From positions 1 to 64,000 of the forward strand of contig CAKMJS010000064.1 in the NCBI GenBank assembly GCA_927405585.1: DNA of 64,000 nucleotides. Direction: 5' to 3'. Within the stretch, counting starts at the first letter, position 1. Each line of letters begins with the position of its first letter. A program made the position numbers and the translations under genes. The DNA comes from an uncultured Desulfosporosinus sp. GTDB taxonomy: Bacteria; Bacillota; Desulfitobacteriia; Desulfitobacteriales; Desulfitobacteriaceae. Below are positions 1,063-42,503 of the stretch, one piece after another. The notes beneath the pieces are model-generated. The model ran no database searches. It saw only the letters and a program-made list of their open reading frames with translations, and was not told the origin of the DNA.

Positions 1063-1174
1063 CTTGCTGGTACACTTATCTGAAATAGCGTCGCAAGTCA
1101 GGTTCCACTAATTCTTATAAGGTAAGTTCAACCATGAGCACAGTCTGAGCTACGCCATGGTCTCCCTCCCTTCC

Positions 1175-1208
1175 GAACCGGACGGACAACTCTCGTTGTA
1201 TCCGGCTC
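1175..1208 (-). ncRNA. Group II intron domain V
   Basis: On the minus strand this 34-base hairpin begins GAGCCGGATAC, has a GAGA loop in the middle and ends GTCCGGTTC. That matches the length, the AGC-type catalytic start and the closing GGTTC of domain V. It lies about 25 bases past the stop codon of the intron reverse transcriptase, the expected place. Confidence 0.9.
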
Positions 1209-1233
1209 TCCGTAAGCCTATAGTCTGTCGTTC

Positions 1234-3057
1234 TTAGTCACAAGCGTGAATCTTATCGTGGCAGTCATGGCATACCGCTAGGGTTTTGCGTCGGATATCC
1301 AACATTACCAATTCCCATTGATTGCGCCCACCTAGGTCCTTCAACCGTCTTACCTGATGCATCTCAACGTCACATCCAATTTTGCCGCATAACTCACACA
1401 TGCCCGCTTTTATTCTCGCGGCCAAACTGTTCTTGCGCTCATAGCGTCTGTATGCAGGCAATACCTCCACATTTGAAACAATAGGTTTGCTTTGTTTGCA
1501 AAAGCTACGGGGAAAGGTCGCTTCCTTGATTCCCCGTTTAGTAGTGTATTGCACAGTGAATGTTCCATTTTTAACATATTGCGTCTTAATTCTTTTGATC
1601 TTAGTGCGGTATTTGCCGGCGAAGGTTTTGAGCATACTGTATTTCATCAACCCGGCGAAATTGCCTATTACGCACGCGTTGTTTGCGATGCAGTAATAGT
1701 TATACAGACCGCGCACCTCGGAATTATATTTATTCAATATGTCAATATCTTTGAAGTTGATAAGTTCATTTCGGTGCATGGCGCGCCAGTGGTCTTTACC
1801 CTTTTCGTCCCGTTTGATTCGAGTTGCCTTATATTCCCGCAATTTTGAAGCCCATTTTTCATGGGGCACCAATAGCATAACCATGCCCTTGTAAGCGCGC
1901 ATCCGGTGACCTTTCTTTGTACGCTTGATGGCTTGGCTATGTGACACCGCGATATCATAGCCAAGGAATTGCGCTTTTTGCGTAGTGTGCGTGATTTTGG
2001 TCTTGGTGTCCGAGAGTTTGAGCTTCATCTTTTCCTCCAGAAACACGGTTAGGTCGGCTTTGAGCTTTATTGCGTCCGCTTTGTTTCCAGATAACCCAAT
2101 GACAAAATCATCGGCGTACCGGGTATATTGCAGATTCTTGTATGTCGTGTCGCGGAACGGGCACGATGGTAGTCGGAGTTTGTCCGTCTGCAATTTGTGA
2201 ATTATCTTTGCTCTTTGCGCCTTTTCCTCTTTGCTCAATTGGTTCCACACCTTCTGGTTTGCATTTTTCAGCCGGTAAATCTGCCCGTCGAGGCGTTTAT
2301 AGGTTTGGTTCCGTTTGCGTTTATGCGAATCACCAATTTTAAAGTTCGTTTTATATTCCTCCATGTATTCATCCAGCTCGTTTAGATAGATGTTTGCAAG
2401 TATCGGACTTGTGCCTGAACCTTGCGGTACGCCGGAATAGGTGCTGTGGAATTTCCACTGCTCCATAAATCCTGCTTTCAGGAATTTCCACATTAACGCA
2501 ATGAACTTTTCGTCATCTATGCGCTTGCGGAGCAAGTCTATCAACACATGGTGGTCAAATGAGTCAAAGCATGCGGTGATATCACCTTCGACAAACCAGA
2601 TGGCTCCCGTGAAGGTATTTTGGATTTGCTTGAGCGCAGTGTGGCAGCCTCTATGCTGCCGGAATCCGTGTGACCGGTCGGAGAATATCGAATCGTATAT
2701 GCTCTCCAAGAGCATGCGGACTACTTCCTGCACCAGCTTGTCGTCGCCCGACTGAATTCCAAGCGGACGTTTTTTCGTCGAGTTTTTCTTCTCGATATAT
2801 TCGCGGCGTGCAGGATGGGGCTGGTAGCTTTCGTTTTTCAGGGATTCGATAATTTTCCCGATACGTCTGCCGCCAAGGCCGTCAATGGTTGTGCCGTCAA
2901 CACCCGGAGTCATGCTACCGCCGTTTGCATAGATGTTCCGATAGGCGGTATAGTAGAACTCTGGGTTGTACAGGTTCCGGTATAACCGTTGAAATCTGTA
3001 CGACTTGTCTTGTGATTTCTCGCTCAGATGCTTTAATACTTCGGTTGGACTTCTCAT
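1234..3057 (-). CDS. ltrA: Group II intron reverse transcriptase/maturase with HNH endonuclease
   Basis: 607 residues, close to the 599 of Lactococcus LtrA, and similar along the whole length. The RT fingers/palm cover roughly residues 60-370, with the catalytic Y-A-D-D at 314-317. The maturase (X) domain follows to about 480. The C-terminal DNA-binding and HNH part has paired cysteines (C-E-L-C near 558 and C-H-D-C near 594) and M-H-Q-V-R between them. The usual P-Q-G-G before the palm is P-Q-G-S-G here, a small deviation. All domains look intact, so splicing, reverse transcription and retrohoming may all still be possible. The protein helps the surrounding intron RNA fold and cuts the target's second strand. 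Confidence 0.93.
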   Translation of the reverse strand: MRSPTEVLKHLSEKSQDKSYRFQRLYRNLYNPEFYYTAYRNIYANGGSMTPGVDGTTIDGLGGRRIGKIIESLKNESYQPHPARREYIEKKNSTKKRPLGIQSGDDKLVQEVVRMLLESIYDSIFSDRSHGFRQHRGCHTALKQIQNTFTGAIWFVEGDITACFDSFDHHVLIDLLRKRIDDEKFIALMWKFLKAGFMEQWKFHSTYSGVPQGSGTSPILANIYLNELDEYMEEYKTNFKIGDSHKRKRNQTYKRLDGQIYRLKNANQKVWNQLSKEEKAQRAKIIHKLQTDKLRLPSCPFRDTTYKNLQYTRYADDFVIGLSGNKADAIKLKADLTVFLEEKMKLKLSDTKTKITHTTQKAQFLGYDIAVSHSQAIKRTKKGHRMRAYKGMVMLLVPHEKWASKLREYKATRIKRDEKGKDHWRAMHRNELINFKDIDILNKYNSEVRGLYNYYCIANNACVIGNFAGLMKYSMLKTFAGKYRTKIKRIKTQYVKNGTFTVQYTTKRGIKEATFPRSFCKQSKPIVSNVEVLPAYRRYERKNSLAARIKAGMCELCGKIGCDVEMHQVRRLKDLGGRNQWELVMLDIRRKTLAVCHDCHDKIHACD

Positions 3058-3676: not shown

Positions 3677-3809
3677 AAACCCAGTATTATAAATGCCGTC
3701 CAACCTCTATGTAGGTGGACGGCATTCGTGGATAATGGGAAGAAATGTTACACGGTGGAGGGTCGGAATTATAATAAGTAATTGGTGAATTGAAAAGGTA
3801 ACTTCCACT
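3677..3809 (+). repeat. Leader repeat block, copy B (3' part, after the intron)
   Basis: Contains the hairpin GCCGTCC...GGACGGC at 3695-3723 and the GGATAATGGGAAG tail. The 5' part of this copy (ATTCTTATAA) is at 1111-1120 on the far side of the intron. A 13-base sequence, ATAATAAGTAATT, at 3771-3783 recurs exactly at 5691-5703 beyond the IS30 element. Without the two insertions this block would stand before the gene at 5804. Confidence 0.75.
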
Positions 3810-5684
3810 TTGTAGAGTTTATTTCCACCGAAGCAAACATTAGGGCGATAACCTTGGTGAAAATTGTTCACGTCTATCGAATTTATGATGGATTTGTTAT
3901 AATCAGACGGACAACAAGCAGAATTTACTTGTTTTGGGGTACACGAAGCTAGGGAGTGAAAAATAACCGTTTTTTAGTAAAGGTAAATTCCACCCCTTTT
4001 GAGTGCTCAATAGTGAAGCGGACTGTGGATAGTGCCGACATGTGGACAACCTTGCGCGTAACGCTTCAGGTTGACCACATGGCTTGGGCAAGCAGTTTGG
4101 GGCATTCCTTAAAAGAGCTTGCCCACACTCTCCACAGCCCCGGCGGCTAGGACAAGATTGTTGTTGATCCTTAAAGTATAAAATGGGTCAATAGATGCTT
4201 TCTGCCCGGCCATCAGCGGTAATGCCTGCCTTGTTTGTGTTTTATTTTTTAAGAAGTTTGGGATGAAGGATAATAGCATTTTTGGGAATGCATATAGCAT
4301 CCAGCTTCAGTAAGGTATCCGTACCATGAAGAAAGCTGAAGACCGCGTGTGGTGACCGGTCACTCAGCTTTCTTCTTCCATAGGAATTGATATGATTCAT
4401 CATCAGATTCATATCTTCCTGGTTATACGGGGTGAAATTGTGGCCCTTAGGAACAATCCTGCGGATTAATTCGTGATTATTCTCCACCGCGCCCTTCTGG
4501 TAAGGAGCTGATGGGTCACAATAAAATATAGAGGTTCTGCGGTTCCCTTCTTTATCAAACTCAAGAGCTAAAGGATTGGAAAATTCACTTCCGTTATCGG
4601 TCAAAATAACAGGAAACAATCTTTGAAAACTATCAGTTCTCAGGTCCCCATAAAGGCGTTCAAAGATATCAATGACTGACTGAGAAGTATTCGCGTTGCG
4701 GATAAAAGCCAGCATAAACTGAGAGTCTAAGAAGTGGAGGGTTAACAGGACTTTTCCTCCTTTAACACCCTCTACGCTGTCCATCTGAACAATCGGCGTA
4801 TCCGGGTGTTCTTCCATGAAGAGAAGAAAGTCTTTATAGGTGCGTCCGATTCTGCATGATTTATCGACCTTGAAATGTACGGCGGCTCTCTTTCTTGGGC
4901 GGTATTTAACTTTTCTGGGGAGGTCAAGGTTTCTGGCCGAAAAGAGGTTATAATCCACATAGTTATAGAGGGTCTTATCACTGCACATGATAACATCCCT
5001 GTTATTGGAACAGATATGATGAATGGATTGACCGTTACGGATGAGTGGGCTGATGATTTGATCGAGACGTAAAATTTCCACTTCATCAACAGTGATTCCA
5101 CTGCGAGATTCTGAACGGATTAATTCATACTCCATTTGGGCGTCTGCTGCGACGTAAAACGACTTCTGAAGAGTACAGCTCCTCAATTGCTTGCATCCGT
5201 TGCAGACATAAGGGGCCTTGACCTGCAGAGTACAGGCCTCTATCTTATAATCGTCACAATGGGTAGAACAATGGGAACAAAATCGACAGTAACGGTTACG
5301 ACAGAGTGGAGAGGCACAACTATAGGATTTGGTACATGTGAAACGATGAAGACAGTTGTTGAAAGCCCTGCCATAGGAACCCGTCTTTTTAAAAATGAGA
5401 TAATTTCTTACTTCCTTGGATATAGAAGTACAGTCCTTATTAAGGTCCCTGCCGATCGCTTTAAATGAGCAGGCATCCTTAAGCAGACGTTCAAGGGTTA
5501 TTCTTTCGCTAAGGGTAAAATGTTTAAACTTAGACATAATGAGCCTCCTAATAATAGGCAGGCATTACTTCATGGGAACCGAGCAAATAAAAGTATAATA
5601 ATTTGTACAACTAAAAGCCACCCTTTTATTTGTAAGACTAACTTCCACATGTGAGGGTAGTAGGGGTGGAAATAAGTTTTACAA
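3810..5684 (-). mobile_element. IS30-family insertion sequence
   Basis: Bounded by imperfect inverted ends: 3810-3829 on the plus strand and 5665-5684 on the minus strand agree at 17 of 20 bases (TTGTA...TTATTTCCACC). Further TTCCAC motifs lie just inside or outside both ends and may be transposase-binding sites. One complete transposase gene is inside. About 410 bases between the left end and the transposase stop hold no gene that I recognise. The target duplication is not clear: a perfect 13-base direct repeat flanks the element asymmetrically, 26 bases from the left end and 6 bases from the right. Confidence 0.75.
4242..5537 (-). CDS. IS30-family transposase
   Basis: 431 residues. An N-terminal helix-turn-helix (about residues 8-45, with S-F-K-A-I-G-R-D-L) is followed by a cysteine-rich zinc-binding stretch (about 62-122). 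The integrase core supplies the DDE triad: D253 (Q-M-D-S), D314 (L-T-D-N-G) and E352 (K-G-A-V-E-N-N). The order and the T-D-N-G-S-E-F block are those of IS30 transposases. No frameshift or stop is visible, so the element may be active. The ATG follows a purine-rich GGAGGC site (TAGGAGGCTC in the minus sense). Confidence 0.9.
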   Translation of the reverse strand: MSKFKHFTLSERITLERLLKDACSFKAIGRDLNKDCTSISKEVRNYLIFKKTGSYGRAFNNCLHRFTCTKSYSCASPLCRNRYCRFCSHCSTHCDDYKIEACTLQVKAPYVCNGCKQLRSCTLQKSFYVAADAQMEYELIRSESRSGITVDEVEILRLDQIISPLIRNGQSIHHICSNNRDVIMCSDKTLYNYVDYNLFSARNLDLPRKVKYRPRKRAAVHFKVDKSCRIGRTYKDFLLFMEEHPDTPIVQMDSVEGVKGGKVLLTLHFLDSQFMLAFIRNANTSQSVIDIFERLYGDLRTDSFQRLFPVILTDNGSEFSNPLALEFDKEGNRRTSIFYCDPSAPYQKGAVENNHELIRRIVPKGHNFTPYNQEDMNLMMNHINSYGRRKLSDRSPHAVFSFLHGTDTLLKLDAICIPKNAIILHPKLLKK

Positions 5685-5803: not shown

Positions 5804-6109
5804 ATGAATAAACAAGTTGATATGTACTATATTATGTTCGAGGCAAAACCCCTACCCGATAACCCTGAAAGTGAGGAGTGTGGTGGGGCTTACATAAATG
5901 TCTGGGTAAATTCTGAAGACTCAAATTTTGCTATGGAACGGGCAAAAAATTATATAAGAAATGAAGGATGGGAAATTATTAAAGTCGAGGATATGTTTGT
6001 CACTAATAGTCAAAGGTATGAAGATGAGCCAGAATCGCTTGAATGTTTCAATGAAGCTTTAGAATATGGGATAAGTGCTCTGTTCCATATCTGGGAAAAA
6101 GAGAACTAG
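5804..6109 (+). CDS. Small acidic hypothetical protein
   Basis: 101 residues, soluble and acidic, rich in Glu and aromatic residues. I recognise no family. An AAGGAGC ribosome site stands 8 bases before the ATG. It is the first gene after the IS30 element and was probably linked to leader repeat B before the insertions. There is no signal peptide or membrane segment. Its single-gene setting between intergenic repeats matches the other orphans of the island. Confidence 0.65.
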   Translation: MNKQVDMYYIMFEAKPLPDNPESEECGGAYINVWVNSEDSNFAMERAKNYIRNEGWEIIKVEDMFVTNSQRYEDEPESLECFNEALEYGISALFHIWEKEN

Positions 6110-6215
6110 GTACAATAAGCAACGTGTCGGAGGAGCATTATTTTTTATTAAAGTATTACTCAGACTTTTACTTCGCATTGGTACTACAAAGAACTAACTT
6201 GATATCTGTCTGCTA

Positions 6216-6260
6216 ATTATTCTTATTCGCGACCCAATGTAGGATAATCAGAATTTAATG
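6216..6260 (+). repeat. Leader repeat block, copy C (short form)
   Basis: Shares ATTATTCTTATTCGCGACCC, then AATGTAGGATAAT and AATTTAATGAAG with the other copies, but lacks the GCCGTCC hairpin. Copies D and G are also short, so the hairpin is a removable or optional part. The following bases (TTTATTTTAACTAGAAGACG) also resemble the sequence after copies E and F, so the conserved leader is longer than the core. It precedes the gene at 6367. Confidence 0.7.
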
Positions 6261-6366
6261 AAGCGTTTATTTTAACTAGAAGACGAGAATATTAAGATTA
6301 GAAATTGGTGGCTTAAAGGAAAAATATACGAACTGGTTCGCACTAAGTCAATGGAGGTCTTTACGT

Positions 6367-6909
6367 ATGAGTGAATTTAGTGAGAGTTATCATCTTAAAA
6401 GCAATAACCAAACTGATGCAGTATCATTACTTAAAAAAGCTTCACTAAGTGGTCATGTTTTACCACAACATAATGGATGGGTTTCATTTGTCGTTAAGGA
6501 AAGCCAGTTTGAACCAATTGACAAACTAATTAGTTCAAATCAGGGACAACTGATTCATTATATTTACGCAGAAGACCATGGATGGGAGATATCGATTTAT
6601 TTTGATAGCAAGCGAGTTTTCAATTACCGGTGTGACTGGGAAGATGAGATTTCGGTAGATGATAATGGTTTAAGTATGGATTTGATTAAAGAATTATCAA
6701 TGCAAGAAGTTTCAGATGAACAATTAGGAGAGATTTTTTATCCCAATGATTTTGACGGTATATTTGATAACCCGCCTGCATACAAAATCGCCGAAATTCT
6801 TGGTTTAAAGCATTATGAGTGGGTCTCATATGATTATGTAAATAGTGATTTGGAGACAGGTGAAACTGGAATGGAGCTTACTTTAAAGGATATTATTAGA
6901 GTTGGCTAG
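6367..6909 (+). CDS. Hypothetical protein
   Basis: 180 residues, soluble, acidic, no signal peptide. I recognise no domain. There are many aromatic residues and repeated acidic pairs (for example W-E-D-E-I-S-V-D-D). A GGAGG site lies 9 bases before the ATG. The gene lies between leader repeat C and the attC-like palindrome at 6954-7027, so it looks like the cargo of one cassette-like unit. Confidence 0.65.
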   Translation: MSEFSESYHLKSNNQTDAVSLLKKASLSGHVLPQHNGWVSFVVKESQFEPIDKLISSNQGQLIHYIYAEDHGWEISIYFDSKRVFNYRCDWEDEISVDDNGLSMDLIKELSMQEVSDEQLGEIFYPNDFDGIFDNPPAYKIAEILGLKHYEWVSYDYVNSDLETGETGMELTLKDIIRVG

Positions 6910-6953
6910 GGACAGGCTTTGTTAAGTGTCTGCTTCGAAGCTGCAGGACTTCA

Positions 6954-7027
6954 CATAACAGGGGAGTTTCAAAACTTAGAATAGATGAATGTAGTATGAC
7001 GCTTCGGAACTCCCCGGAACGTTAGAC
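6954..7027 (+). repeat. attC-like imperfect palindrome I
   Basis: Begins with CATAAC (6954-6959), has arms GGGGAGTTTC (6961-6970) and GGAACTCCCC (7006-7015), and ends with CGTTAGAC (7020-7027). GTTAGAC fits the integron core-site form GTTRRRY. Arm pairing is 9 of 10 plus a G-T pair. The order (R''-L''-spacer-L'-R') is that of an integron attC site. CATAAC matches only part of the inverse core consensus. Confidence 0.6.
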
Positions 7028-7072
7028 GCCATTTCCTATGATTGTCTTACATTTAATTAAGGAGAGACAGAT

Positions 7073-7609
7073 ATGTGCTATTACCTGGTAGCAACCTTAC
7101 CCTCAAATGTAAACATAAGAGCATTAAAACCGACTATCGAACGTTATCACATGGGCTTCGAGATGTTAGAGAATCCTTATATTCTACATCAATTACCTAA
7201 GGGTGAACGGCTTTTTTACGCAACTAAGCGTCACTGCGATTGTGATACTGCTCTTGGGTGTGACGTTGGCGCATTAAATACAAATGAACTTGAGGGAGAA
7301 ATAGAAAGGTTAAGAAAAAAGGGTTGGGGACAAGCGAAAATCGAACGATGGAAAAGTGAAAGGGATGATCTGAAGGAAGTGGATCGGCTAAATCAAGACA
7401 AAGAGTTAGAGATTTGGTACGCTTTTATAAGTGAGGCACTTGAAGGAAATAATGCAACGCATATTGGAATTATGAAACACTTTTTTGCAGGGTCAGTTGA
7501 ACAAGAGAAGGTAAAGATTTCAGAAATCAAAGAGGTTAGGATCAAAGGAATAAAGCCGAAGTATTTAAGAAAAATCGAGGATGATACCTTATATAACTTC
7601 ATTCAGTAA
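7073..7609 (+). CDS. Hypothetical protein in a cassette-like unit
   Basis: 178 residues, soluble. Near residues 46-62 it has a Cys/His cluster (R-H-C-D-C-D then G-C-D-V), which could bind metal, followed by a charged helical region (E-L-E-G-E-I-E-R-L-R-K-K-G-W-G). I recognise no named family. An AAGGAGA site precedes the ATG. The gene is bounded on both sides by the two best attC-like palindromes (6954-7027 and 7629-7705). Its 5' border GTTAGAC and 3' border GTCTAAC are exact reverse complements, as expected for one integron cassette. Confidence 0.7.
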   Translation: MCYYLVATLPSNVNIRALKPTIERYHMGFEMLENPYILHQLPKGERLFYATKRHCDCDTALGCDVGALNTNELEGEIERLRKKGWGQAKIERWKSERDDLKEVDRLNQDKELEIWYAFISEALEGNNATHIGIMKHFFAGSVEQEKVKISEIKEVRIKGIKPKYLRKIEDDTLYNFIQ

Positions 7610-7628
7610 TTTCATCCTGAGAAACGGC

Positions 7629-7705
7629 GTCTAACTACGGAGTTCCTGACACTTGGAGGATGATACATGTAATTAGGGCGCGTCGGGAACTCCTGGATGT
7701 TAGCT
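7629..7705 (+). repeat. attC-like imperfect palindrome II
   Basis: Starts with GTCTAAC (7629-7635, fits RYYYAAC), has arms GGAGTTCCTGAC (7639-7650) and GTCGGGAACTCC (7682-7693; 11 of 12 paired, the twelfth a G-T pair) and ends with GTTAGCT (7699-7705). The spacer is 31 bases. It lies 20 bases past the stop of the preceding gene, the usual place for an attC site. Confidence 0.65.
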
Positions 7706-7773
7706 GAAATCGGACGCGATATGCCGAAGTATGACGCATTTTTTGATATTGCTCCACAAGCACCTAACTTCGC

Positions 7774-7815
7774 ATTGTTCTTATTCGCAACCCAATGTAG
7801 AGAAACAGAAGCAAG
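7774..7815 (+). repeat. Leader repeat block, copy D (short form)
   Basis: ATTGTTCTTATTCGCAACCC and AATGTAG are shared with copy C. The tail is changed to AGAAACAGAAGCAAG. No hairpin is present. It lies 26 bases before the start of the gene at 7841. Confidence 0.6.
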
Positions 7816-7840
7816 TTATTAAAGGAGAGAAGGTGATTTA

Positions 7841-8419
7841 TTGCTTTTATCAAATCATAATTACGAGATTCAAATAACAAAAGATGGGCAATATACACTT
7901 TTTTCAACAGACAACATATTTTACGATATTATCATCGAAACTGAAGAATATAGCAGAAATGATTTTATATGTGCCTATTCTGTGTCAATCCAAGATTCAC
8001 TTCATGATAATGATTATAAAGTCGGTATCATCGGAAGAGCCTATGGAAGCGTTGAAAACTGTGCTGTATTAGAAGAAAATCGGTTAGTTGTGTTAGCGGA
8101 TAATTATTTAGTTTTCTTCGACTTAAAAGCTCAACAATTAGAAAACAAGATTCTAATATTAGATTTTGGAACAGGAATTGAAATTTACCCCTTTGACGAA
8201 GGATACATTGTTAATGGAGAAACCGATATTATCAAAGTGGATAAATTCGGGAATAAGGTTTGGGATTTTAGTGGAAGGGATATTTGGGTAAGACCTAATG
8301 GAGAGTCATCAATCAAGATTTTGGATAATAGCTTGTTACTAATAGATTGGGAAGGAAACAAGTATAATTTGGATAAATTGGGTAGGGAAATATCATGTAG
8401 AGGTGCAGGGGAAAAATAA
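7841..8419 (+). CDS. Hypothetical protein, beta-rich
   Basis: 192 residues with a TTG start behind AAAGGAGAGAAGG. The sequence alternates hydrophobic and polar residues with several W/F-G turns, as in a beta-propeller-like fold, but I cannot assign a family. There is no signal peptide. The gene follows leader D directly and is followed by leader E. A 62-codon frame inside it on the same strand is an artefact of the other reading frame. Confidence 0.6.
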   Translation: MLLSNHNYEIQITKDGQYTLFSTDNIFYDIIIETEEYSRNDFICAYSVSIQDSLHDNDYKVGIIGRAYGSVENCAVLEENRLVVLADNYLVFFDLKAQQLENKILILDFGTGIEIYPFDEGYIVNGETDIIKVDKFGNKVWDFSGRDIWVRPNGESSIKILDNSLLLIDWEGNKYNLDKLGREISCRGAGEK

Positions 8420-8431
8420 TCTATGATTCCA

Positions 8432-8511
8432 ATTATTCTTATACCCATCAGTATAAATGCCGTCCAACCTCTATGTAGGTGGACGGCATTCGAAGGATAA
8501 TTAGAAGTTAA
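8432..8511 (+). repeat. Leader repeat block, copy E with hairpin
   Basis: ATTATTCTTATACCCATCAG, then the hairpin GCCGTCC...GGACGGC (8459-8487), then GGATAATTAGAAGTTAACG. The loop (AACCTCTATGTAGGT) is identical to that of copy B. It lies between the genes at 7841 and 8693. The hairpin could act as a terminator for the gene behind or as a leader for the gene ahead; no U-run follows it. Confidence 0.75.
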
Positions 8512-8692
8512 CGAACAATATATTTAGACTAGAAGATATTTTGGAACGGTAGGAATTCAACTAGAACTTCACTTTGAAATTATGGCGATAGCGGGTACTG
8601 TTCAATACTATTGGTAAAAGAAGGAATTAGGTAGCTTTATGGAGAAAACTGTTGCATGTAAAAATTATTTGTGATGAAGGAGAATTATCATT

Positions 8693-8899
8693 ATGAATTA
8701 TATGGGACCGAGCGTTGGATTAGGTATATTTAGCTTTCTTGGCTTAGTGATCTATATTGGTCTTTTGGCTCTATTTGTATATTTAATAATTAGTACTATA
8801 CAATTCTTTAAACGGAAGACCGAGAATGACAAGGAACTACTAGTAAAACTTGATACTCTTATCCAGTTACAATCTCAAAAGAAAGACATCCAGTCATAA
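8693..8899 (+). CDS. Small single-pass membrane protein
   Basis: 68 residues. A glycine-rich start leads into a hydrophobic segment (about residues 12-41, long enough for one or two passes). A charged tail with a coiled-coil look follows (E-N-D-K-E-L-L-V-K-L-D-T-L). GAAGGAG precedes the ATG. I know no specific function. Small proteins of this shape are common in sporulating Firmicutes. Confidence 0.6.
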   Translation: MNYMGPSVGLGIFSFLGLVIYIGLLALFVYLIISTIQFFKRKTENDKELLVKLDTLIQLQSQKKDIQS

Positions 8900-8952
8900 C
8901 AAAGTAGGGGTTTCACTATTTGCACGGGGCATAGTTGAAACCTTTACCTTTA
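8899..8952 (+). repeat. Imperfect inverted repeat after the 8693 gene
   Basis: ATAAC is followed by GGGGTTTCACTAT and, 13 bases later, ATAGTTGAAACCTTT. The arms GGTTTCA-CTAT and ATAG-TTGAAACC pair apart from one bulge. It could be a decayed attC-like palindrome or simply a terminator; it overlaps the end of the gene. Confidence 0.4.
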
Positions 8953-8990
8953 AGTCGAGAGTCTATTAACAAATAGAGGAGGCACTCGCA

Positions 8991-9548
8991 ATGAAGAGTT
9001 CCCTATTTAGACTACTATTAATTCTTTCTATTTCGTTATCTTTATCAGCTTGCTCAAAGCCTATAACTAGTGCTGATGAATCTCAGACAATAACTAGAAA
9101 CAAAGTAAACGAAATCTCACAAAAGGGAGTAGCAGAATTCAAGAAGAGGGCAGAAGAAAAGGGATTAACAGAAACGATGGTGCATTCACTTGGCAATCTT
9201 GGCTTATTAGAACAAGAAATATTGAATCTCTCGTCTGAAAGAATAGCCGAGATTTTCGCGCCTGGAGCGACAAATGATGGTGCTCCATTATTCATAGCAA
9301 ATGATAAACAAATACAGGAACTTAAAGAAGTTAGCATTGATCTTAATATGAGCGCAATTTTAGGAAACTTAGGATATACATATGATGAAATGTTGAGGAT
9401 GGCTCCTAACGAAGTTGATTTTATATTCCCAAATACAGAGCTTTTGGCTAATCTAGCGAAGAAAGGATTTAGCGAGCAAGAAATTCAAATTTGGCTTGAT
9501 AAAGGTAAAACATATAAAGAAGTTGTAAGAGAAGCATTGAGACAATAG
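8991..9548 (+). CDS. Hypothetical lipoprotein
   Basis: 185 residues. The N-terminus is a classical lipoprotein signal peptide: K-S-S-L-F-R, a hydrophobic run and the lipobox L-S-A-C at residues 18-21. The mature part is helical and charged, with two similar segments containing E-M-L/E-I-L and N-L-G-x-x. I recognise no domain. It is predicted to be anchored to the outer face of the membrane. AGGAGG lies 9 bases before the ATG. Confidence 0.7.
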   Translation: MKSSLFRLLLILSISLSLSACSKPITSADESQTITRNKVNEISQKGVAEFKKRAEEKGLTETMVHSLGNLGLLEQEILNLSSERIAEIFAPGATNDGAPLFIANDKQIQELKEVSIDLNMSAILGNLGYTYDEMLRMAPNEVDFIFPNTELLANLAKKGFSEQEIQIWLDKGKTYKEVVREALRQ

Positions 9549-9637
9549 TATTTTAGGGCATTACTCAATACTAAAATAGCGTAATGACATCAGTTCTTTT
9601 TAAGTACAAGGTATCTTGAGAAAAGCCAGTTTCGGCG

Positions 9638-9673
9638 CTTAACTCAGAGCGAGTGCTCGCGACATCGTTATAA
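9638..9673 (+). repeat. Possible short attC-like remnant
   Basis: CTTAAC, a small hairpin (GCGAG and CTCGC) and GTTATAA occur in the attC order but with very short arms. I report it only because it is in the expected place between two orphan genes. Confidence 0.25.
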
Positions 9674-9749
9674 ACACAAACCATGAGGAAAGCTAGCCAC
9701 CAGGCTGCCCAAGCATATGATGAGAATAACGTTACAAGGGAGGGAATAT

Positions 9750-10190
9750 ATGGCTCGTGTATCGGTGAGATTCAAAGTTATCTCGATTTTAGCATTTGTG
9801 CTTATCTCTATTTTAACATTTGCTTATCTTATTCAAACTCCAGCGACAAAACTTCTTACTAAGAATGTTGAAGAAGTCCAGAAAATTACCGTGGTTAATT
9901 TAAGAAATGGAAATCACACATCGGAGATTACTCAGGCAGAAGATAAAGATTTAATTAACACAATTTATCAATCAATCAATACAACTAAAACTCGAATAGT
10001 AATCAAACCTGATGCATCGGAAGAACAGAATAGCGAACCTAATTTTACAATTCAGATAGTTTATTCAGATGGGACGGAAGACGGCATATACTCGACAGAA
10101 GGCGGTAAAGTTATATATAAAAGGCTATCAGGAAGCGAATGGGTTGGTGGTAAAAATAAGGGTCTAATTGAAGTCGTAAATATGCTATAA
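9750..10190 (+). CDS. Hypothetical membrane-anchored protein
   Basis: About 146 residues from the ATG at 9750, which has GGGAGG six bases upstream; the in-frame ATGs at 9717 and 9720 lack a good site. Residues 10-30 form a single hydrophobic anchor (V-I-S-I-L-A-F-V-L). The rest is a soluble domain with alternating strands. Spaced charged residues near T-E-G-G-K-V-I-Y are typical of small extracytoplasmic domains, but no family is recognised. Confidence 0.6.
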   Translation: MARVSVRFKVISILAFVLISILTFAYLIQTPATKLLTKNVEEVQKITVVNLRNGNHTSEITQAEDKDLINTIYQSINTTKTRIVIKPDASEEQNSEPNFTIQIVYSDGTEDGIYSTEGGKVIYKRLSGSEWVGGKNKGLIEVVNML

Positions 10191-10557
10191 CAATACAGCA
10201 TATAGAGGAAAAGAACCTTGATTCGCTTTCTTATACTGGTGACCATCATTAGGATAATTGAAGCTCATAAGCACGACAATCGCACTTATAAAGCGGTCAA
10301 TGGGTGCGTCCTACCCGTGTTATATCATGTTTTATGCGTAACGTTCCAACGACAATTATGCGCTACTTACAAAAGGCTCAACAGCAAAACGAGAAGGGAG
10401 ATAAATCCTCCGCGTTCTCGTTAATTGATTTACGTAAATATGGCAAGTAGAAGGAGACCAATACCAATTAAAACTGCTCCAACTAAATCATAGTTATCTA
10501 AACGTTATGTGACATTCCGGAAAATGAATGGAATTCCTATGTGGGGAGGGATTTTTT
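10191..10557. other. Intergenic stretch with gene remnant and inverted repeat
   Basis: Holds an inverted repeat (AACGAGAA near 10388 and TTCTCGTT near 10415) and a C-terminal membrane-protein remnant on the minus strand at 10430-10504. CGTTATGTGAC at 10503-10513 resembles the right end of the attC-like sites. A 68-codon plus-strand frame at 10218 has no recognisable features and is rejected. Confidence 0.5.
10430..10504 (-). pseudogene. C-terminal remnant of a small membrane protein (YnfA-like?)
   Basis: On the minus strand a 24-codon stretch reads R-L-D-N-Y-D-L-V-G-A followed by an I-G-I-G-hydrophobic run and a stop. This is the pattern of the last membrane helix of YnfA/UPF0060 proteins. 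A stop codon lies just upstream, and the remnant begins exactly at the attC-like end (AACGTTATG). It looks like a gene cut at a cassette border. The family call is uncertain. Confidence 0.35.
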
Positions 10558-11181
10558 GTGAGGAAATTATTATTAGTCTTTATTAAAATCCTAATCTGTA
10601 CTGTTTTCATTACAGGATGTTCTAATCAAGCAACTTTAAATAATAAGATTCAATCCCTAGAAAATGAGAATAGAGAAATGCGGTTAATATTAGAACAGGT
10701 CAATTCAATATCTATGGCCTATCAAGAATACGAAGATAAAGTAAGGTTTGTTCCGAAAGAATCTCAGATTTACGCACTTCCAATTAAGGGGTTCAGAAAA
10801 TTGAATTCAATAGAAGCTAATACTGTTATCCAAGTAGTAGATTCTGCCCAATGCCAAGATCAACAACTGTGGTTATATGTATCTGTGCCAGTATATGACA
10901 CTCCTATTAATTTTAAGGGATGGATTCCCGAATCTGAAACGATTAAATTGACCCAAGAGAATGTTAAACAAGTACAGGGAGATGTTTCCCTTAAAGAAGG
11001 AACCCCAATCTATGAAGTAGATCAGTTTAATGAGATAAATATAGCAACTGCGACTAAAACTTCTTATGATGTTAGAGGTAGAATTGAGAAAAGAGAAGCT
11101 TCTTTCGTGTACCTAATGTCACCAGGTGGATGGTATTTTTGGGTAGAAGAGGAGTATCTTATATTTCCAAAAGTTGAATAA
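10558..11181 (+). CDS. Lipoprotein with possible SH3-like domain
   Basis: 207 residues from the GTG at 10558, which has GGGGAGGG seven bases upstream; an earlier in-frame ATG at 10528 would bury the signal peptide. The lipobox I-T-G-C follows a hydrophobic run. A short coiled coil comes next (S-L-E-N-E-N-R-E-M-R). The C-terminal two thirds alternate short strands (for example L-W-L-Y-V-S-V-P and G-W-I-P-E-S), as in bacterial SH3-type wall-binding domains; that domain call is tentative. It is predicted to be on the outer membrane face. Confidence 0.65.
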   Translation: MRKLLLVFIKILICTVFITGCSNQATLNNKIQSLENENREMRLILEQVNSISMAYQEYEDKVRFVPKESQIYALPIKGFRKLNSIEANTVIQVVDSAQCQDQQLWLYVSVPVYDTPINFKGWIPESETIKLTQENVKQVQGDVSLKEGTPIYEVDQFNEINIATATKTSYDVRGRIEKREASFVYLMSPGGWYFWVEEEYLIFPKVE

Positions 11182-11192
11182 GAGAAAAACGG

Positions 11193-11273
11193 AGTCCCGT
11201 CACCTAAAAACGTATTCCCACAAATCTGAGAGAATATGAAAGTAAAAACCAGACTTCGGGAATACGCGGGACT
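11193..11273 (+). repeat. attC-like palindrome V (two nested arms)
   Basis: Outer arms AGTCCCG (11193-11199) and CGGGACT (11267-11273) and inner arms CGTATTCCC (11211-11219) and GGGAATACG (11258-11266) are perfect. The middle contains TCTGAGAGAATATG and CCAGACTTC, which recur in the palindrome at 12123-12195, so the two share ancestry. The right core box is degraded: ACTATATTTG where GTTATG would be expected. Confidence 0.6.
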
Positions 11274-11281
11274 ATATTTGA

Positions 11282-11390
11282 ATGGACTATCGTCAGTTCG
11301 CATTATTCTTAAAACCTAGTAGTAGAAATGATGCCGTCCAACCTCTATGTAGGCGGACGGCGTCAGTAGGATAATGGGAAGTTGATGAAG
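11282..11390 (+). repeat. Leader repeat block, copy F with hairpin
   Basis: Starts with TGGACTATCGTCAGTTCGC, then ATTATTCTTAAAACC, the hairpin GCCGTCC...GGACGGC (11333-11361; one loop base differs from B and E) and GGATAATGGGAAGTTGATGAAG. The ATTATCGTCAG part also opens copy G. It precedes the DUF4160/DUF2442 pair. Confidence 0.75.
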
Positions 11391-11496
11391 AATTTATTAA
11401 ACGAGAATATTTTGGGGCTGACTTTGTGGAAATATTTGCAAAAGGATTTTGAACGTTTATAATGAATAGAGAACGTGTATGAAGGGGTGATCGGAA

Positions 11497-11757
11497 ATGC
11501 CTGTAGTTTCAGAGTTCTACGGAATAAAGATTTTGATGTATTGGAATGACCACATGCCTGCACATTTTCATGCCGAATATGGTGATCATAAGATAATTGT
11601 GGATATTGTCAATGGTTCTGTAATAAAGGGGATATTCCCATCAAAACAACTAAGACTAGTTCTTGCATGGTGTGAGATTCATAAAGATGAATTAACGAGA
11701 AATTGGAAAGCAGCAAAAGAACATCAAGACATCCAAAAGATTAATCCTCTTATCTAA
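11497..11757 (+). CDS. DUF4160 protein
   Basis: 86 residues. It has the family's opening (M-P-V-V-S-E-F-Y-G-I-K-I-L-M-Y-W), the H-M-P-A-H-F-H-A-E-Y-G motif and the C-terminal N-W-K-A block. DUF4160 genes usually stand next to a DUF2442 gene, as here (gap 20 bases), and the pair has been suggested to behave like a toxin-antitoxin module; no activity is established. GGGGTGATC precedes the ATG. Confidence 0.85.
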   Translation: MPVVSEFYGIKILMYWNDHMPAHFHAEYGDHKIIVDIVNGSVIKGIFPSKQLRLVLAWCEIHKDELTRNWKAAKEHQDIQKINPLI

Positions 11758-11777
11758 TCTAACAAGGAGGTGTTATT

Positions 11778-12083
11778 ATGTTCCATAGAGTTGTACAAGT
11801 GGTACCGACTAACGATTTCAGGGTATATATATTTTTTGAAGATGGAAAGATAAAACTATTTGATGCTTCTAACCTAGTCACTAAGGGAGTATTTCAGAAA
11901 CTCCAGGATATAAGCGTTTTTAAAGATACATGTACAGTTTTAAACCATACATTGGCCTGGGACCTTGAGGGGAAATATGACCCAACTGAATGCTTGGATC
12001 TTGATCCAGAAGAACTTTATAATTCAAGTCCCGATGTTATTGAACCTAAATTAGACGATTCTATACTGACAGCAAAAGGCTGA
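11778..12083 (+). CDS. DUF2442 protein
   Basis: 101 residues. The central part shows the DUF2442 pattern: V-Y-I-F-F-E-D-G-K-I-K-L-F-D, then F-Q-K-L-Q-D, and L-A-W-D-L-E-G-K-Y-D near residue 75. This family pairs with DUF4160 and is sometimes compared with DNA-binding antitoxins, without proof. AAGGAGG lies before the ATG. A terminator follows directly, so the two genes form one short transcription unit. Confidence 0.85.
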   Translation: MFHRVVQVVPTNDFRVYIFFEDGKIKLFDASNLVTKGVFQKLQDISVFKDTCTVLNHTLAWDLEGKYDPTECLDLDPEELYNSSPDVIEPKLDDSILTAKG

Positions 12084-12105
12084 CAAATTTTTTGTCAGCC
12101 TTTCT
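12075..12105 (+). terminator. Terminator after the DUF4160/DUF2442 pair
   Basis: Arms AAAGGCTGACAA and TTGTCAGCCTTT with a short T-rich loop, overlapping the stop codon of the DUF2442 gene and followed by CTCTTT. Confidence 0.8.
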
Positions 12106-12122
12106 CTTTAGCATTCGACTTC

Positions 12123-12195
12123 ATCTAACAGAGGGTTTGCAAAATCTGAGAGAATATGTAATAGCCTGACTTCGGGAATTCTCAGGACGTTATAG
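12123..12195 (+). repeat. attC-like palindrome VI
   Basis: Starts with ATCTAAC (fits RYYYAAC) followed by AGAGGGTTTGC, has the shared middle TCTGAGAGAATATG and CCTGACTTCG, and ends with CAGGACGTTATAG. The left arm AGAGGGTTTGC pairs with GCAAACCCTC of the next site (12943-13000), not with its own right arm (GGGAATTCTC). This suggests exchange of halves between sites. Confidence 0.55.
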
Positions 12196-12270
12196 CAGTT
12201 CGCCATCCTTGGCCTTGGCTCACTAAGTGAGGGTTTGAAGGTAAAAAACAATCACATGGAGGTGATCTAT

Positions 12271-12862
12271 TTGGATAATGACAGCAAGATTATTAACATT
12301 AATAGTCGAATAAAAAAGCTCGATGATGATAATGACATGAATGGATTTGAAGATTGGGAAGATGACTATAATCTCATCAGTAAAGGGGATTACATAGGAT
12401 TAAAAAGACATAGACAAGAAGTCGCGAAGAGTCACCCTGCTGATATCTATGCACAATGGCGATTGGGAGAGGCATATATTTTATGTAAAGAGTACGAAAA
12501 AGCAATTGATTATTTCACACCGTTATATAGAAAAAATCCAGATTATGGCGATATCGAATATTCAATTTTAGACGCCTTGTTTGCATTGGGAAAAAGTGAA
12601 AGAGACTTTAAATGGGTTTCGGTGCCAGAAGTTAAAAGATTGAACGATGAAATTTCGGACTTTTGTTACGATTATCTAAAAGGTAAAAGGAAAGCAAGAG
12701 GTTTGGATGATGTATATTGTCAATTAATTGTTGAGGGATACCTTTAGTGAAGAAGAATTGTTGAATCATTTGATTAAAGATGGAAGGTTTGAATTCCAAA
12801 ATGATGGTGGTGTTCATAGCACTTTACTAAAAGTTCAAAGGAAAAGTAAATTGAAATTGTGA
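12271..12862 (+). pseudogene. TPR-like protein gene, frameshifted near its end
   Basis: The TTG at 12271 has GGAGGTGAT five bases upstream; a TTG at 12235 is in frame but has no site. The open frame runs to 12747 (158 residues). Residues about 62-95 look like a tetratricopeptide helix pair (A-Q-W-R-L-G-E-A-Y, Y-E-K-A-I-D-Y-F). After the stop, another frame continues without break for 37 codons (12746-12862; S-E-E-E-L-L-N-H-L-I-K-D-G-R-F) and ends in a stop. It looks like the lost C-terminus, with the shift at the CTTTAG near 12743. The protein made would lack about 40 residues. A sequencing error could give the same picture. Confidence 0.6.
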
Positions 12863-12942
12863 AGGTTAGGCTTCGGAGAGGACGCTCCGCCTTCCATGGC
12901 TCCGCCGGTCACAGTCCATCCGATAGCAAAGTGTTTGCTGAC

Positions 12943-13000
12943 ATCGGAGAGAATATTTAATATTAGTAACCAGACGTCGCAAACCCTCCGGACGTTATGT
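12943..13000 (+). repeat. attC-like palindrome VII (decayed left half)
   Basis: GAGAGAATAT and CCAGACGTC are followed by GCAAACCCTCCGGACGTTATG. The right half is intact, with GTTATG as a core-like box. The left partner is degraded to GTGTTTGC. It shares its middle with palindromes V and VI. Confidence 0.5.
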
Positions 13001-13004
13001 GAAT

Positions 13005-13070
13005 GGATTATCGTCAGTCCTCATTATTCTTATTCGTGACCTGAAGTAGGATAACTGGAAGTTAATTTCC
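13005..13070 (+). repeat. Leader repeat block, copy G (short form)
   Basis: GGATTATCGTCAG, ATTATTCTTATTCGTGACC and GGATAACTGGAAGTTAA, without the hairpin. It follows palindrome VII directly, so palindrome plus leader form one composite unit here, as at copy F. Confidence 0.65.
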
Positions 13071-13901: not shown

Positions 13902-14987
13902 ATGGAAAGAATCTTCAACTTCAATGCAGGTCCAGCTACACTTCCGCTCGCTGTTTTGGAAGAAGCGCAAAGCGAACTACTTAACTTTAAAGGCACGGGC
14001 ATGTCTGTCATGGAAAATAGTCATCGTTCTAAAGAGTACCAAGCCATCAATTCCGAAACAGAAGCGCTCGTTAAAGAGTTGCTAAGCGTGCCAGAGAATT
14101 ACCGAGTTTTATTTTTACAAGGTGGCGGTAGTACTCAATTTGCAGCAGTACCCATGAATTTGGTCTCTTCAGATAGTCATGCAGACTATATCCTGACCGG
14201 TGCTTGGGCAGAAAAAGCCTATAAAGAAGCCTCGAAATTTGCTAAAACCAATGTAGCTGCTAGTACAAAGGAAGAAAACTACACGCGCATACCCAGAACG
14301 GATGAAATTAAGCTGAGTAAAGATCCTGCTTATGTCCATCTTTGTTCAAATAACACGATCTTCGGTACCCAGTGGCAAGCTTTCCCAGACCTTGGGGACG
14401 TTCCGCTGGTTGGCGATATGTCGAGTGATATCATGTCGCGGCGCTTTGATGTATCTAAGTTTGCTTTGATCTATGCTGGAACGCAAAAAAACCTTGGCCC
14501 GGCTGGAGTAACCGTAGTAATTATTCGTAAAGATTTATTGGACAGTATTCCCACTAACATTCCCACGATGCTTCGTTATGATATTCACTCGAAAAATGAT
14601 TCCCTCTATAATACCCCCCCCTGCTTTTCCGTATATATGGTGAATCTGGTTCTGCGCTGGCTTAAAAATAATGGTGGATTGGTCGCGGCGGAAAAACGTA
14701 ATGCTGAGAAAGCGGCCTTAATTTATGATGCTATTGACTACAGTGAGGGCTTTTATCGAGGTCATGCCGTTAAAGATAGCCGATCATTAATGAATATCAC
14801 GTTTCGCTTACCGAGTGAGGAGTTAGAAAGCAAATTTGCAGTCGAGTCCATACAACACGGTATGATTGGTTTAAAGGGCCACCGTTCAGTGGGTGGTCTC
14901 AGGGCGTCAGTCTACAATGCCATGAGTATTGAAGGGTGTATGGCTTTAGTTGATTTCATGAAAGTCTTCCAAAGCAAAAACGGCTAA
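13902..14987 (+). CDS. serC: Phosphoserine aminotransferase
   Basis: 361 residues, the normal length for SerC. It converts 3-phosphohydroxypyruvate and glutamate to O-phosphoserine in serine synthesis and uses PLP; it can serve in PLP synthesis too. The start F-N-A-G-P-A-T-L-P, the Q-G-G-G-S-T-Q-F phosphate-binding stretch, the PLP lysine K196 in G-T-Q-K-N-L-G-P and H-R-S-V-G-G-L-R-A-S near the end are all present. GGGAGG precedes the ATG. No serA follows, so the partner dehydrogenase must be elsewhere. The codon pattern is ordinary and the gene appears intact. Confidence 0.95.
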   Translation: MERIFNFNAGPATLPLAVLEEAQSELLNFKGTGMSVMENSHRSKEYQAINSETEALVKELLSVPENYRVLFLQGGGSTQFAAVPMNLVSSDSHADYILTGAWAEKAYKEASKFAKTNVAASTKEENYTRIPRTDEIKLSKDPAYVHLCSNNTIFGTQWQAFPDLGDVPLVGDMSSDIMSRRFDVSKFALIYAGTQKNLGPAGVTVVIIRKDLLDSIPTNIPTMLRYDIHSKNDSLYNTPPCFSVYMVNLVLRWLKNNGGLVAAEKRNAEKAALIYDAIDYSEGFYRGHAVKDSRSLMNITFRLPSEELESKFAVESIQHGMIGLKGHRSVGGLRASVYNAMSIEGCMALVDFMKVFQSKNG

Positions 14988-38699: not shown

Positions 38700-40091
38700 G
38701 TGAGTAAATTTTTTACCCGGATGGGTGACGGTTTTGGAATCTATCTAAGCGAAGAAGAAATTCGTGCTGATATTGAAGAAGGCACAAAAGATGCAGCAGA
38801 CCGTGCCCAAATTCCACAATTATCAAAGGAAGAAATGGACCATTTGTATGACATTGTGACGATGCCTGGAATTGTCGTTGGCGTCGAAAGAGGTCAGGAG
38901 GTTGTCACCACGTCCGATTCGGGAGGGTGTAAAATATCCTATCATTGCAACATTGCGATTGACCGATCGACGGCTATTTTGATTCATGAAAAGGTGTTGG
39001 GTGCCGATTCTCTCGACTTAGGACATATTGACTATAGTTATAAAGCGGTTAAGTCAGTCCTGCACGATGAAGCAGCCATGATGGAACTGACCCAATTAAA
39101 CTCGGTCATTCCAGTTCTATATGGTTCCATGCCAAATTTAGGACTTTATACTAAACCGGACGGTCCTGTCGATAACTGGGCTGAGCTATTGCCCTTAGGG
39201 AGAATTGACGAGGCCAGAGCAGCACAGGAAGAAGCTGTCGAACACGCCGTCAAAGATATCGTATACGTAGCCGAAGGCATGTATGAAGCTGGGGCGGATG
39301 GAATGAATATCGACACCTCAGGAGCCTCGGGAGATGCAGATGTCCTAGCAGCCCTTAAAGCGATTGAGATAATTAAACAAAAATTCCCCGACTTAGGAAT
39401 CGAAATGGGGATGGCTGGGGAATTCATTCTAGGTATGCACGGGAAACTCGAATATGATGGCGTTCGACTCGCCGGTTTATACCCCCATAATCAAGTGAAA
39501 TTGGCCGAGAAAGCCGGCGCAAACATTTTTGGCGCCGTGGTCAATACTAATAGTAACATGTCCTTTCCCTGGAATATTGCGCGTACAGTGACCTTTGTCA
39601 AAGCCTGTACCGAGGCTGCCAACATTCCTGTCCATGTTAATGTCGGGATGGGAGTCGGTGGAGTTCCGATGTGCGAGGTTCCTCCGGTTGATGTCGTGAC
39701 TCGAGCGGATAAAGCCTTGATAGAAATCGGTAAGGCCGACGGCTTATAGATAGGCGTAGGCGATCCCTTTGGTTTAGAAGTGGCTCATGAAGTTGCCTCG
39801 GGCATGGGTGGAATACGTACTGCCGGAGATCTGGTATTACGTCTGCAATTGTCCAAAAGCATGAAAATTCATGATGCGAAAAAGTATGTAGCCGATAAAC
39901 TCGGCATTACTCCCCTTGAGTTAAGCGATTGTGTTATCATGGCTGAGATAAGAGAGGATCTTAATCTCGGACGACCGATGCCACCAGATCGTACAGCCAA
40001 GGGAATTGAAGCGAAATTCCGGATTGCACAATTATTAGGTATCAAAATTAACTCTGTAGAACGATTTAAGACCAAGGCAGGCTTAAGTTAG
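38700..40091 (+). CDS. mtbB: Dimethylamine methyltransferase with pyrrolysine (UAG at 39747-39749)
   Basis: A GTG start behind AAGGAGGT opens a frame that stops at UAG after 349 codons and continues in the same frame for 113 more (39750-40091). The 463-residue product, with pyrrolysine as residue 350, agrees with archaeal MtbB (about 467 residues, Pyl near 356). The sequence around the codon is K-A-D-G-L-Pyl-I-G-V-G-D-P. MtbB moves a methyl group from dimethylamine to the corrinoid protein MtbC. No stop-codon variant or frameshift is seen on either side, which speaks against a pseudogene. The pyl genes needed are not in the window. Confidence 0.92.
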
Positions 40092-41000: not shown

Positions 41001-42503
41001 ATGACTCGGAGAAACCCTTCTGCGGGAAGTAGTGGCTTAGAAGGCTTTGGGTTAACTGTTTTTACTCAAGATGATTTAGACCGAATCCATAAGGCGACCC
41101 TAGAAGTTTTATGGTTTGAAGGTATCAAAGTAAACAGTGATATGGCTCTCGAGATTTTCCAAGACGGCGGATGTACCGTCGATCGGGAGATGAAAAAGGT
41201 CTATATTCCCGCCCATGTGGTAGAGGATTGTATCCGTTCAGCACCATCGACGGTGCTGCTGGCTGCTAGAGATCCTCAGAACGATGTGATACTCGACGGA
41301 CGCAGGGTCAATTTTTGTAACTTCAGCAAAGGAGTTTTGGTCGTTGACCCTTACACCTCTGAAATAAGAAAGTCGACTCGACAAGACATGGTTACCGCGT
41401 CTATTTTAGTGGATTATCTAGAACAGTATGATGTCTTAGACGTCGCCGTGGAAGCGAGAGAAATCGACCCGCGGATGGCGAATCTGGAATGCTACGAAGC
41501 AATGGTCTCTAACTCAACGAAGCATTCCACCCAATCTCCGCATAGTGTCGCAGAAGCGGAGAAACTGATCGAAATGGCAGCCGCAGTCGTTGGTGGCATG
41601 GATAAACTCAGACAGAGGCCAATCACCTCAGCAACGGTTTGCCCTCAGAGCCCTTTATCTCTAGCTGAAGAAACCTGTGAGCCGATTATCACCTATGCAA
41701 AACACGGTTTACCGATGAATATTTTATCAATGGCTATGGCAGGGGGGACTGCGCCCGTCACTTTAGCAGGCACATTAGTAACCCATAATGCAGAGGTCTT
41801 AAGTGGCATTGTTTTAGCCCAATTGACCAATAAAGGAACACCGAATATGTATGGTAGCTCAACGACCATCATGGATTTGAAATCAGCTTCAGCCACCATC
41901 GGTTGTCCTGAGTTAGGTATGCTGAGTGCGGCCGTATGCAAACTAGCACAGTACTATAATATTCCAAGTTATGTAGCCGGGACGTAGACAGATAGTAAAT
42001 TAGGCGATGAACAGGCTGGACATGAAAAAACCCTGACAATGCTTTTGCCGGCGTTAGCAGGAGCTAACATGATTTATGGCTTAGGCATGATCGAGTTAGG
42101 GATGACTCTAGATTTTGGCCAGCTTGTGGTGGACAATGAAATCGCCAAGATGGTGAGAAAAGTAGTGGGTGGAATTCGTGTCACGGATGAAACGCTCGCG
42201 GTGGATGTGATCCGTAAGGTAGGCGCCGGAGGACACTTCCTGTTAGAAGAGCATACATTCAAGCACATGAAAAACGTTCAATCCCAAAGTCAACTGTTTG
42301 ACCGTAACCCCCGCGAACATTGGGTCGAAAGCGGCTCTAAAGACTTGGCAACGAGAGCAAGAGAACAAGTGAGATATATCCTGGAAAATCATAAACCCGA
42401 ACCCCTTCCTGCAGAGGTTTCCAAGCAGCTTCGCCAAATCATTGAAACTGCGGAAGTAGAGTGGGAGATCCACAAACCGAAAGTTCGCAGACGAAGAACT
42501 TAA
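41001..42503 (+). CDS. mttB: Trimethylamine methyltransferase with pyrrolysine (UAG at 41985-41987)
   Basis: Reading from the ATG at 41001 (GGGGCTGG upstream), the frame meets UAG after 328 codons and continues in frame for 171 more to 42503. The 500-residue product with pyrrolysine at 329 fits archaeal MttB (about 495, Pyl near 334). The context is V-A-G-T-Pyl-T-D-S-K, the known MttB site. It demethylates trimethylamine and hands the methyl group to a corrinoid protein. It is related along its length to the protein at 37143, where leucine takes the place. A start at 40974 is in frame but less likely. A strong terminator follows. Confidence 0.93.

Follow-up and report, generated by a model that had tools for sequence, protein, structure and literature searches.

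Integron integrases (IntI) handle folded single-stranded attC sites by means of an insertion, I2, which has not been identified elsewhere and which IntI requires to accommodate extrahelical bases (PMC4792948). Only one complete integron has been reported in Firmicutes (PMC9024848). The archaeal integrons of Ghaly et al. 2022 carry attI immediately downstream of the integrase gene, and their IntIs are stated to have the IntI-specific domain (PMC9668308). In the passages of Smyshlyaev et al. 2021 drawn on here, the insertion is not fully conserved within an integron-like subgroup of simple tyrosine recombinases; this subgroup may contain members without I2, to which these passages tie no cassette arrays, attC-like sites or attI (PMC8138268). 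A recombinase without I2 acting on a folded single-stranded site without extrahelical bases, as in the system reported below, is known from CTXphi and XerCD, where there is one phage site, no cassette array and no dedicated integrase (PMC4792948). Here we analysed a 64,000-nucleotide (nt) stretch of DNA (the window) that forms the start of a contig of an uncultured Desulfosporosinus sp. Its array region, at positions 5804-13070, very probably represents the 3′ end of a chromosomal array of gene cassettes that belongs to an integron-type system of a Desulfosporosinus-type Firmicute, with a recombinase lineage that lacks I2 as the putative mover.

The system shares with classical integrons its same-strand cassettes, mostly with a single open reading frame (ORF), folded sites boxed by AAC and GTT, an attI-like head, a GTT crossover deduced from cassette boundaries, and an integrase whose best fold match is IntI4. 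In contrast to classical integrons, the integrase has no I2 insertion and often a HARP-like N terminus, and its gene lies upstream of the array and co-directional with it, with attI after its stop codon as in archaeal integrons. The sites differ as well, by an A.C mismatch, by the near absence of one-sided extrahelical bases in the outer stem, and in part by their R boxes, which keep the AAC/GTT core but have the consensus nnATAAC/GTTATnn where the classical one is RYYYAAC/GTTRRRY. The sites are not classical attC sites, the matching integrase, found in relatives, is of a different lineage, and the system is widespread. Because the I2 domain is missing, we file it as a variant of the integron and not as a member. 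We found no description of I2-less integrons or of this system in open-access text (subscription papers and preprints were outside the scope).

A preliminary description of this DNA had proposed an integron-like cassette array in a Firmicute, built on five imperfect palindromes with a common middle, some of them decayed. All five palindromes were present, and the common middle was real (TCTGAGAGAATATG...CAGACTTC). A covariance model, R1, built from eight sites of the window's genome, three of which lie in the window (A, B and D), recovered exactly these five sites in the window:

6952-7029, + strand: attC-like site A; R1 77.2 bits, training site; folds on both strands; boxes TAAC ... GTTA; probable crossover GTT at 7021-7023
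7628-7707, + strand: attC-like site B; R1 69.3 bits, training site; 14-nt stem; boxes GTCTAAC ... GTTAGCT; GTT at 7699-7701
11201-11281, + strand: attC-like site C, decayed; R1 57.1 bits, E 1.2e-10, outside the training set; with a fold; right box without GTT
12122-12197, + strand: attC-like site D, apparent hybrid; R1 68.8 bits, training site; poor self-fold; GTT at 12189-12191
12920-13002, + strand: attC-like site E, the array's last; R1 42.5 bits, E 4.3e-7, outside the training set; left box decayed, with AGC in place of AAC; GTT at 12994-12996

The two halves of site D do not match each other. Its left arm (12131-12148) pairs instead with 12971-12988, the right arm of site E, so that site D looks like a hybrid. 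Together, sites D and E (12122-13002) resemble the outcome of a half-site swap via the common loop.

R1 sites were found in 55 of the 74 genomes of the order, mostly in same-strand arrays with a spacing of about 0.6-1 kb and with up to 61 sites per genome (61, 59 and 52 in genomes G004, G058 and G018). A site typically comprises a TAAC box, a 3-nt spacer, an 8-bp variable stem, the A.C mismatch at a fixed position, a variable loop, a 6-7-nt spacer and a GTTA box. Across 147 distinct sites, 90.1% of cells were paired (96.2% in the R helix and 94.6% in the outer stem), and double changes numbered 410 as compared to 116±16.5 in shuffles. When the partner was shifted by one column, pairing fell to 39-44%. 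Fitting this alignment to the model biases it towards the structure; even so, the outer stem showed a diversity of pair types far above that of controls. Stem sequences thus vary freely while pairing is kept. The A.C mismatch, which is T.G on the bottom strand, occupied one fixed position in 146 of 150 sites; a one-sided insertion in the left outer-stem arm was seen in one of the 150, with gaps in five, and a second site subtype was less clear in its inner part. According to an energy calculation, the bottom strand would fold more stably in 173 of 202 sites.

Arrays in relatives were found to start at a tyrosine recombinase gene that is co-directional with the array. Among the 17 integrase loci with more than 1 kb of downstream sequence, 14 had their first site 362-1352 nt downstream on the same strand, and the sites at integrase loci comprised 62 in the downstream same-strand position versus six others. 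Several of the integrase copies were frameshifted or cut. Classical IntI was found in none of the 74 genomes of the order, the window's genome included (E≤1e-60). In the 398 sampled genomes of the phylum, the new integrase occurred in 21 (E≤1e-78) and classical IntI, above the cut-off of the same IntI profile, in two; this profile also scored above its cut-off in six of 29 other genomes.

The segment that holds I2 measured 23-25 residues in every member of the new family, as compared to 50-54 in 13 of 13 IntI sequences, and the TIGR02249 scores of the new integrase were below the cut-off. The linked integrase of relatives would not pass as IntI under the two-profile criterion of IntegronFinder (PMC9668308). 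In a phylogenetic tree, IntI was monophyletic (100/100), and IntI together with the new family was set apart from XerC/D (100/100). The node joining the new family was weak (88/61), which makes the family only a possible strict sister of IntI. Tyrosine recombinases of IS91-type elements (L108, L104-L106 and L082) nest inside the new family in this tree, as if derived from it; L108 has an IS91-type transposase after it. An AlphaFold model of the new integrase reached a predicted local distance difference test (pLDDT) score of 90, and the best PDB match of its fold was IntI4 (2a3v, E 6.4e-17). Of 45 members, 18 had a HARP-like N terminus, the best match having an E of 2.6e-4. HARP binds DNA structures, as in SMARCAL1.

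Directly after the stop codon of the integrase gene we found two small palindromes followed by ACGTTA. This conserved arrangement is a putative attI-like site. A GTT motif lay within 200 nt in 36 of 81 cases, as compared to a background of 12.5%.

The 176 intervals between sites had a median length of 920 nt; 91 of the 129 cassettes of up to 1.3 kb held a single ORF, and for 111 of 125 the longest ORF had the same strand as the array. Five pairs of copied cassettes, 99-100% identical, were identified. In genome G055, the copies at 3319087 and 3324269 are 100% identical over 665 nt, while those at 2329399 and 1906509 in G018 are 99.7% identical over 1394 nt and belong to two arrays about 420 kb apart. 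Two further pairs lie in G004 (853650/888141 and 871428/877673), and the copies in G001 (697824/700457) are in opposite orientation. In all five pairs, the preceding sites differ and identity runs from one GTTA box to the next. Such boundaries point to site-specific recombination at GTT, as homologous recombination alone is not expected to produce them. From sequence comparison, the cassettes thus appear to exchange at G/TT of the R′ box. The preliminary description had named a lack of precise cassette-sized insertions or deletions between related genomes as a refuting outcome; precise cassette copies bounded at GTTA do exist in relatives.

We propose that this recombinase, or one of its kind now lost from or unassembled in the window's genome, would capture, excise and reshuffle the cassettes. 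Cleavage would fall at GTT and probably act on the bottom strand in its folded form, with cassettes being inserted at the attI-like site and excised between sites. Strand choice could be achieved via the A.C/T.G mismatch and spacer asymmetry and not via extrahelical bases, while recognition of the folded site might be aided by the N-terminal HARP-like domain of many members. The joint absence of I2 and of one-sided extrahelical bases in the outer stem fits a single mechanism that needs neither.

The integrase family extends beyond the order. A contig scan returned at least 579 integrase relatives, and the best 80 of these included Paenibacillus, Halanaerobiales, Alkaliphilus, Nitrospirota, Gemmatimonadota, Atribacterota, Bacteroidota and others, as well as a few archaeal metagenome-assembled genomes (MAGs). 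A model-free scan for TAAC-hairpin-GTTA gave 58 matches in 333 kb downstream of the integrase versus four in 622 kb upstream. Contigs ended within 500 bp downstream of the integrase in 22 of 79 cases and within the same distance upstream in three of 79. We consider it probable, with some reserve, that there is a second lineage of integrons, present in many bacterial phyla and perhaps also in archaea, whose I2-less integrase deals with folded cassette sites free of extrahelical bases by means of the mismatch signature and, in many members, the structure-binding HARP-like domain. Some MAGs (G074, G078, G079, G083, G084 and G086; L231-L240) held a classical IntI plus an I2-less integrase. In genome G404 (L251, L252), of the window's phylum, a classical IntI integron is accompanied by many attC sites with the typical extrahelical bases, which makes it a useful control. 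The plasmid IntI matches listed were IntI1 only.

Several observations weigh against our interpretation. The system would work like an integron as far as can be read from sequence, from which its recombination is inferred. The bottom-strand folding preference is the outcome of an energy calculation. R1 gave no match at classical attC loci. A LexA-like box was present in four of 87 integrase upstream regions (background 1.7%), which leaves SOS control unsupported. In the model-free scan, the Bacteroidota loci were mostly without a TAAC-type site; as its motif was learned within the order, the scan may overlook lineages whose boxes differ, Bacteroidota among them. Some taxonomic labels of MAGs may be binning errors. 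As for the window itself, the precise cassette copies come from relatives, decay or a hybrid structure affects three of its five sites, and no site lies within a stretch of 3.5 kb. Its draft genome has no array-linked integrase; the sole family relative there (E≤1e-30) is L108 (contig C58, 54131-54937), located beside an IS91-type transposase, and no R1 site is listed on C58.

The preliminary description had noted that no integrase was in view, and indeed the window contains none. Since the window starts at the contig start, the head of the array lies outside view. The window's arrays may be orphaned, as the draft genome is without a copy of the integrase, and this absence together with the three decayed or hybrid sites suggests that the array in the window is probably either inactive or dependent on an integrase from elsewhere. 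The array is probably an orphaned, decaying remnant. The integrase-like gene on C58 was rejected as the cassette mover, as it is part of an IS91-type element and no site is listed there.

A remnant of this kind invites comparison with CALIN, clusters of attC sites without an integrase as defined in IntegronFinder. With at least two attC sites and no nearby IntI as the criterion, the window holds five sites, recognised by our own model R1, and no integrase. The array could be what is left of a classical IntI integron, with ordinary attC sites that persisted after loss of the integrase. CALIN have been described, a few of them from Firmicutes (PMC9024848), and the missing array-linked integrase and the decay of some sites agree with such an origin. 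We nevertheless regard it as very unlikely: the sites occur in 55 genomes of an order in which the IntI profile, which finds IntI elsewhere, detected none in 74, R1 does not match classical sites, and the arrays start at a different recombinase. Unlike CALIN, the sites belong to a family of their own, and the arrays of relatives are linked to an integrase. It is also conceivable in principle that the array-linked gene is a passenger and that the cassettes are moved by another recombinase, either host XerCD or the IS91-associated enzyme of the window's genome. XerCD does use the folded single-stranded phage site of CTXphi (PMC4792948), and Xer-like and IS91-type enzymes are the only ones in that genome. 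However, the array-linked enzyme is constant in position and orientation and followed by the attI-like site in many genomes, the association recurs with members of its family in other phyla, and the C58 gene has no listed site, which makes this explanation very unlikely.

The palindromes might instead be copies of a dispersed repeat, of the repetitive extragenic palindromic (REP) or miniature inverted-repeat transposable element (MITE) type, or terminators, that merely lie between genes. A separate MITE-like repeat does adjoin some sites (C173, C80 and C43). Yet the stems vary freely with pairing kept, unlike copies of one repeat, the sites are on the same strand, regularly spaced and start at a recombinase, and identical cassettes are bounded at GTTA. 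Ordinary terminators, which the preliminary description had named as the explanation that would undo its reading, do not account for the stems either, because the paired R boxes outside the stem, which are not a terminator feature, and the fixed A.C mismatch are conserved. Covariation, strand bias and cassette breakpoints led us to reject terminators and REP/MITE repeats, and we give this explanation hardly any credence. The proposal of an integron-like cassette array is supported by conserved folded sites, same-strand arrays and cassette copies in relatives.

An I2-less family with its own attI-like site and large arrays would make the origin of integrons directly testable, and it may explain the near lack of Firmicutes integrons in surveys for which I2 is a requirement. 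If the second lineage is real, it would represent either integrons as they were before I2 or a solution that arose independently, and integrons would not be nearly absent from Firmicutes. A large number of mobile cassettes in anaerobes and Paenibacillus, so far unexplored, would also become accessible, and new tools for cassette shuffling might follow.

The genes and cassettes of the array region, and the first chromosomal gene beyond it, are as follows:

5804-6109, + strand: ORF of 101 amino acids (aa) that opens the array region behind an IS30-like element; no own site found
6367-6909, + strand: ORF of 180 aa in the cassette ending in site A; no family
7022-7699, + strand: cassette between sites A and B with one ORF, 7073-7609 (178 aa, orphan), from the ORF list; no Pfam match
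7700-11273, + strand: stretch between sites B and C with orphan ORFs 7841-8419, 8693-8899, 8991-9548, 9717-10190 and 10528-11181 and a MITE-like repeat
11274-12189, + strand: cassette with DUF4160 (11497-11757, Pfam 1.3e-22) and DUF2442 (11778-12083, Pfam 5.5e-9)
12190-12994, + strand: cassette with a TPR-like gene (12235-12747); TPR matches under the curated cut-off
13902-14987, + strand: aminotransferase class V gene, serC-like (Pfam Aminotran_5, 2.4e-46); chromosomal backbone past the 3′ end of the array

The genes had been described as same-strand and mostly of unknown family. All genes between the window's sites indeed lie on the same strand, and 7073-7609 forms a clean one-gene cassette whose product has no homologue among the 73 other genomes of the order. 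The stretch between sites B and C contains no R1 match and probably represents several cassettes that have lost their sites. Past site E lie chromosomal genes, the first of which is the serC-like aminotransferase gene.

Further sites of the window's genome lie on five other contigs (C3, C173, C34, C43 and C68), and the location of several at contig ends suggests that arrays were broken during assembly. At the start of C43 (L028, 1-360), a long inverted repeat surrounds a cassette site and is possibly an assembly artefact. The MITE-like repeat occurs in the window at 309-408, 3677-3742, 8432-8544, 11297-11420 and 13020-13066, and also on contigs C80, C173 and C43. It has ends near AACTTCCAGTTATTCTTA / GGATAACTGGAAGTT with the hairpin GCCGTCCA...TGGACGGC within, and in places immediately follows a cassette site.

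An Rfam search of the window gave no family matching the sites; a group II intron and two pyrrolysine elements were its sole results. The intron match (1117-3057, − strand), with an HNH-bearing reverse transcriptase/maturase, is located upstream of the array, and an IS30-like transposase gene (HTH_38; 4242-5537, − strand) lies between it and the first array gene. The pyrrolysine insertion elements, at 39747-39846 and 41985-42084, correspond to PYLIS_2 of mtbB and PYLIS_3 of mttB, which are methylamine methyltransferase genes.

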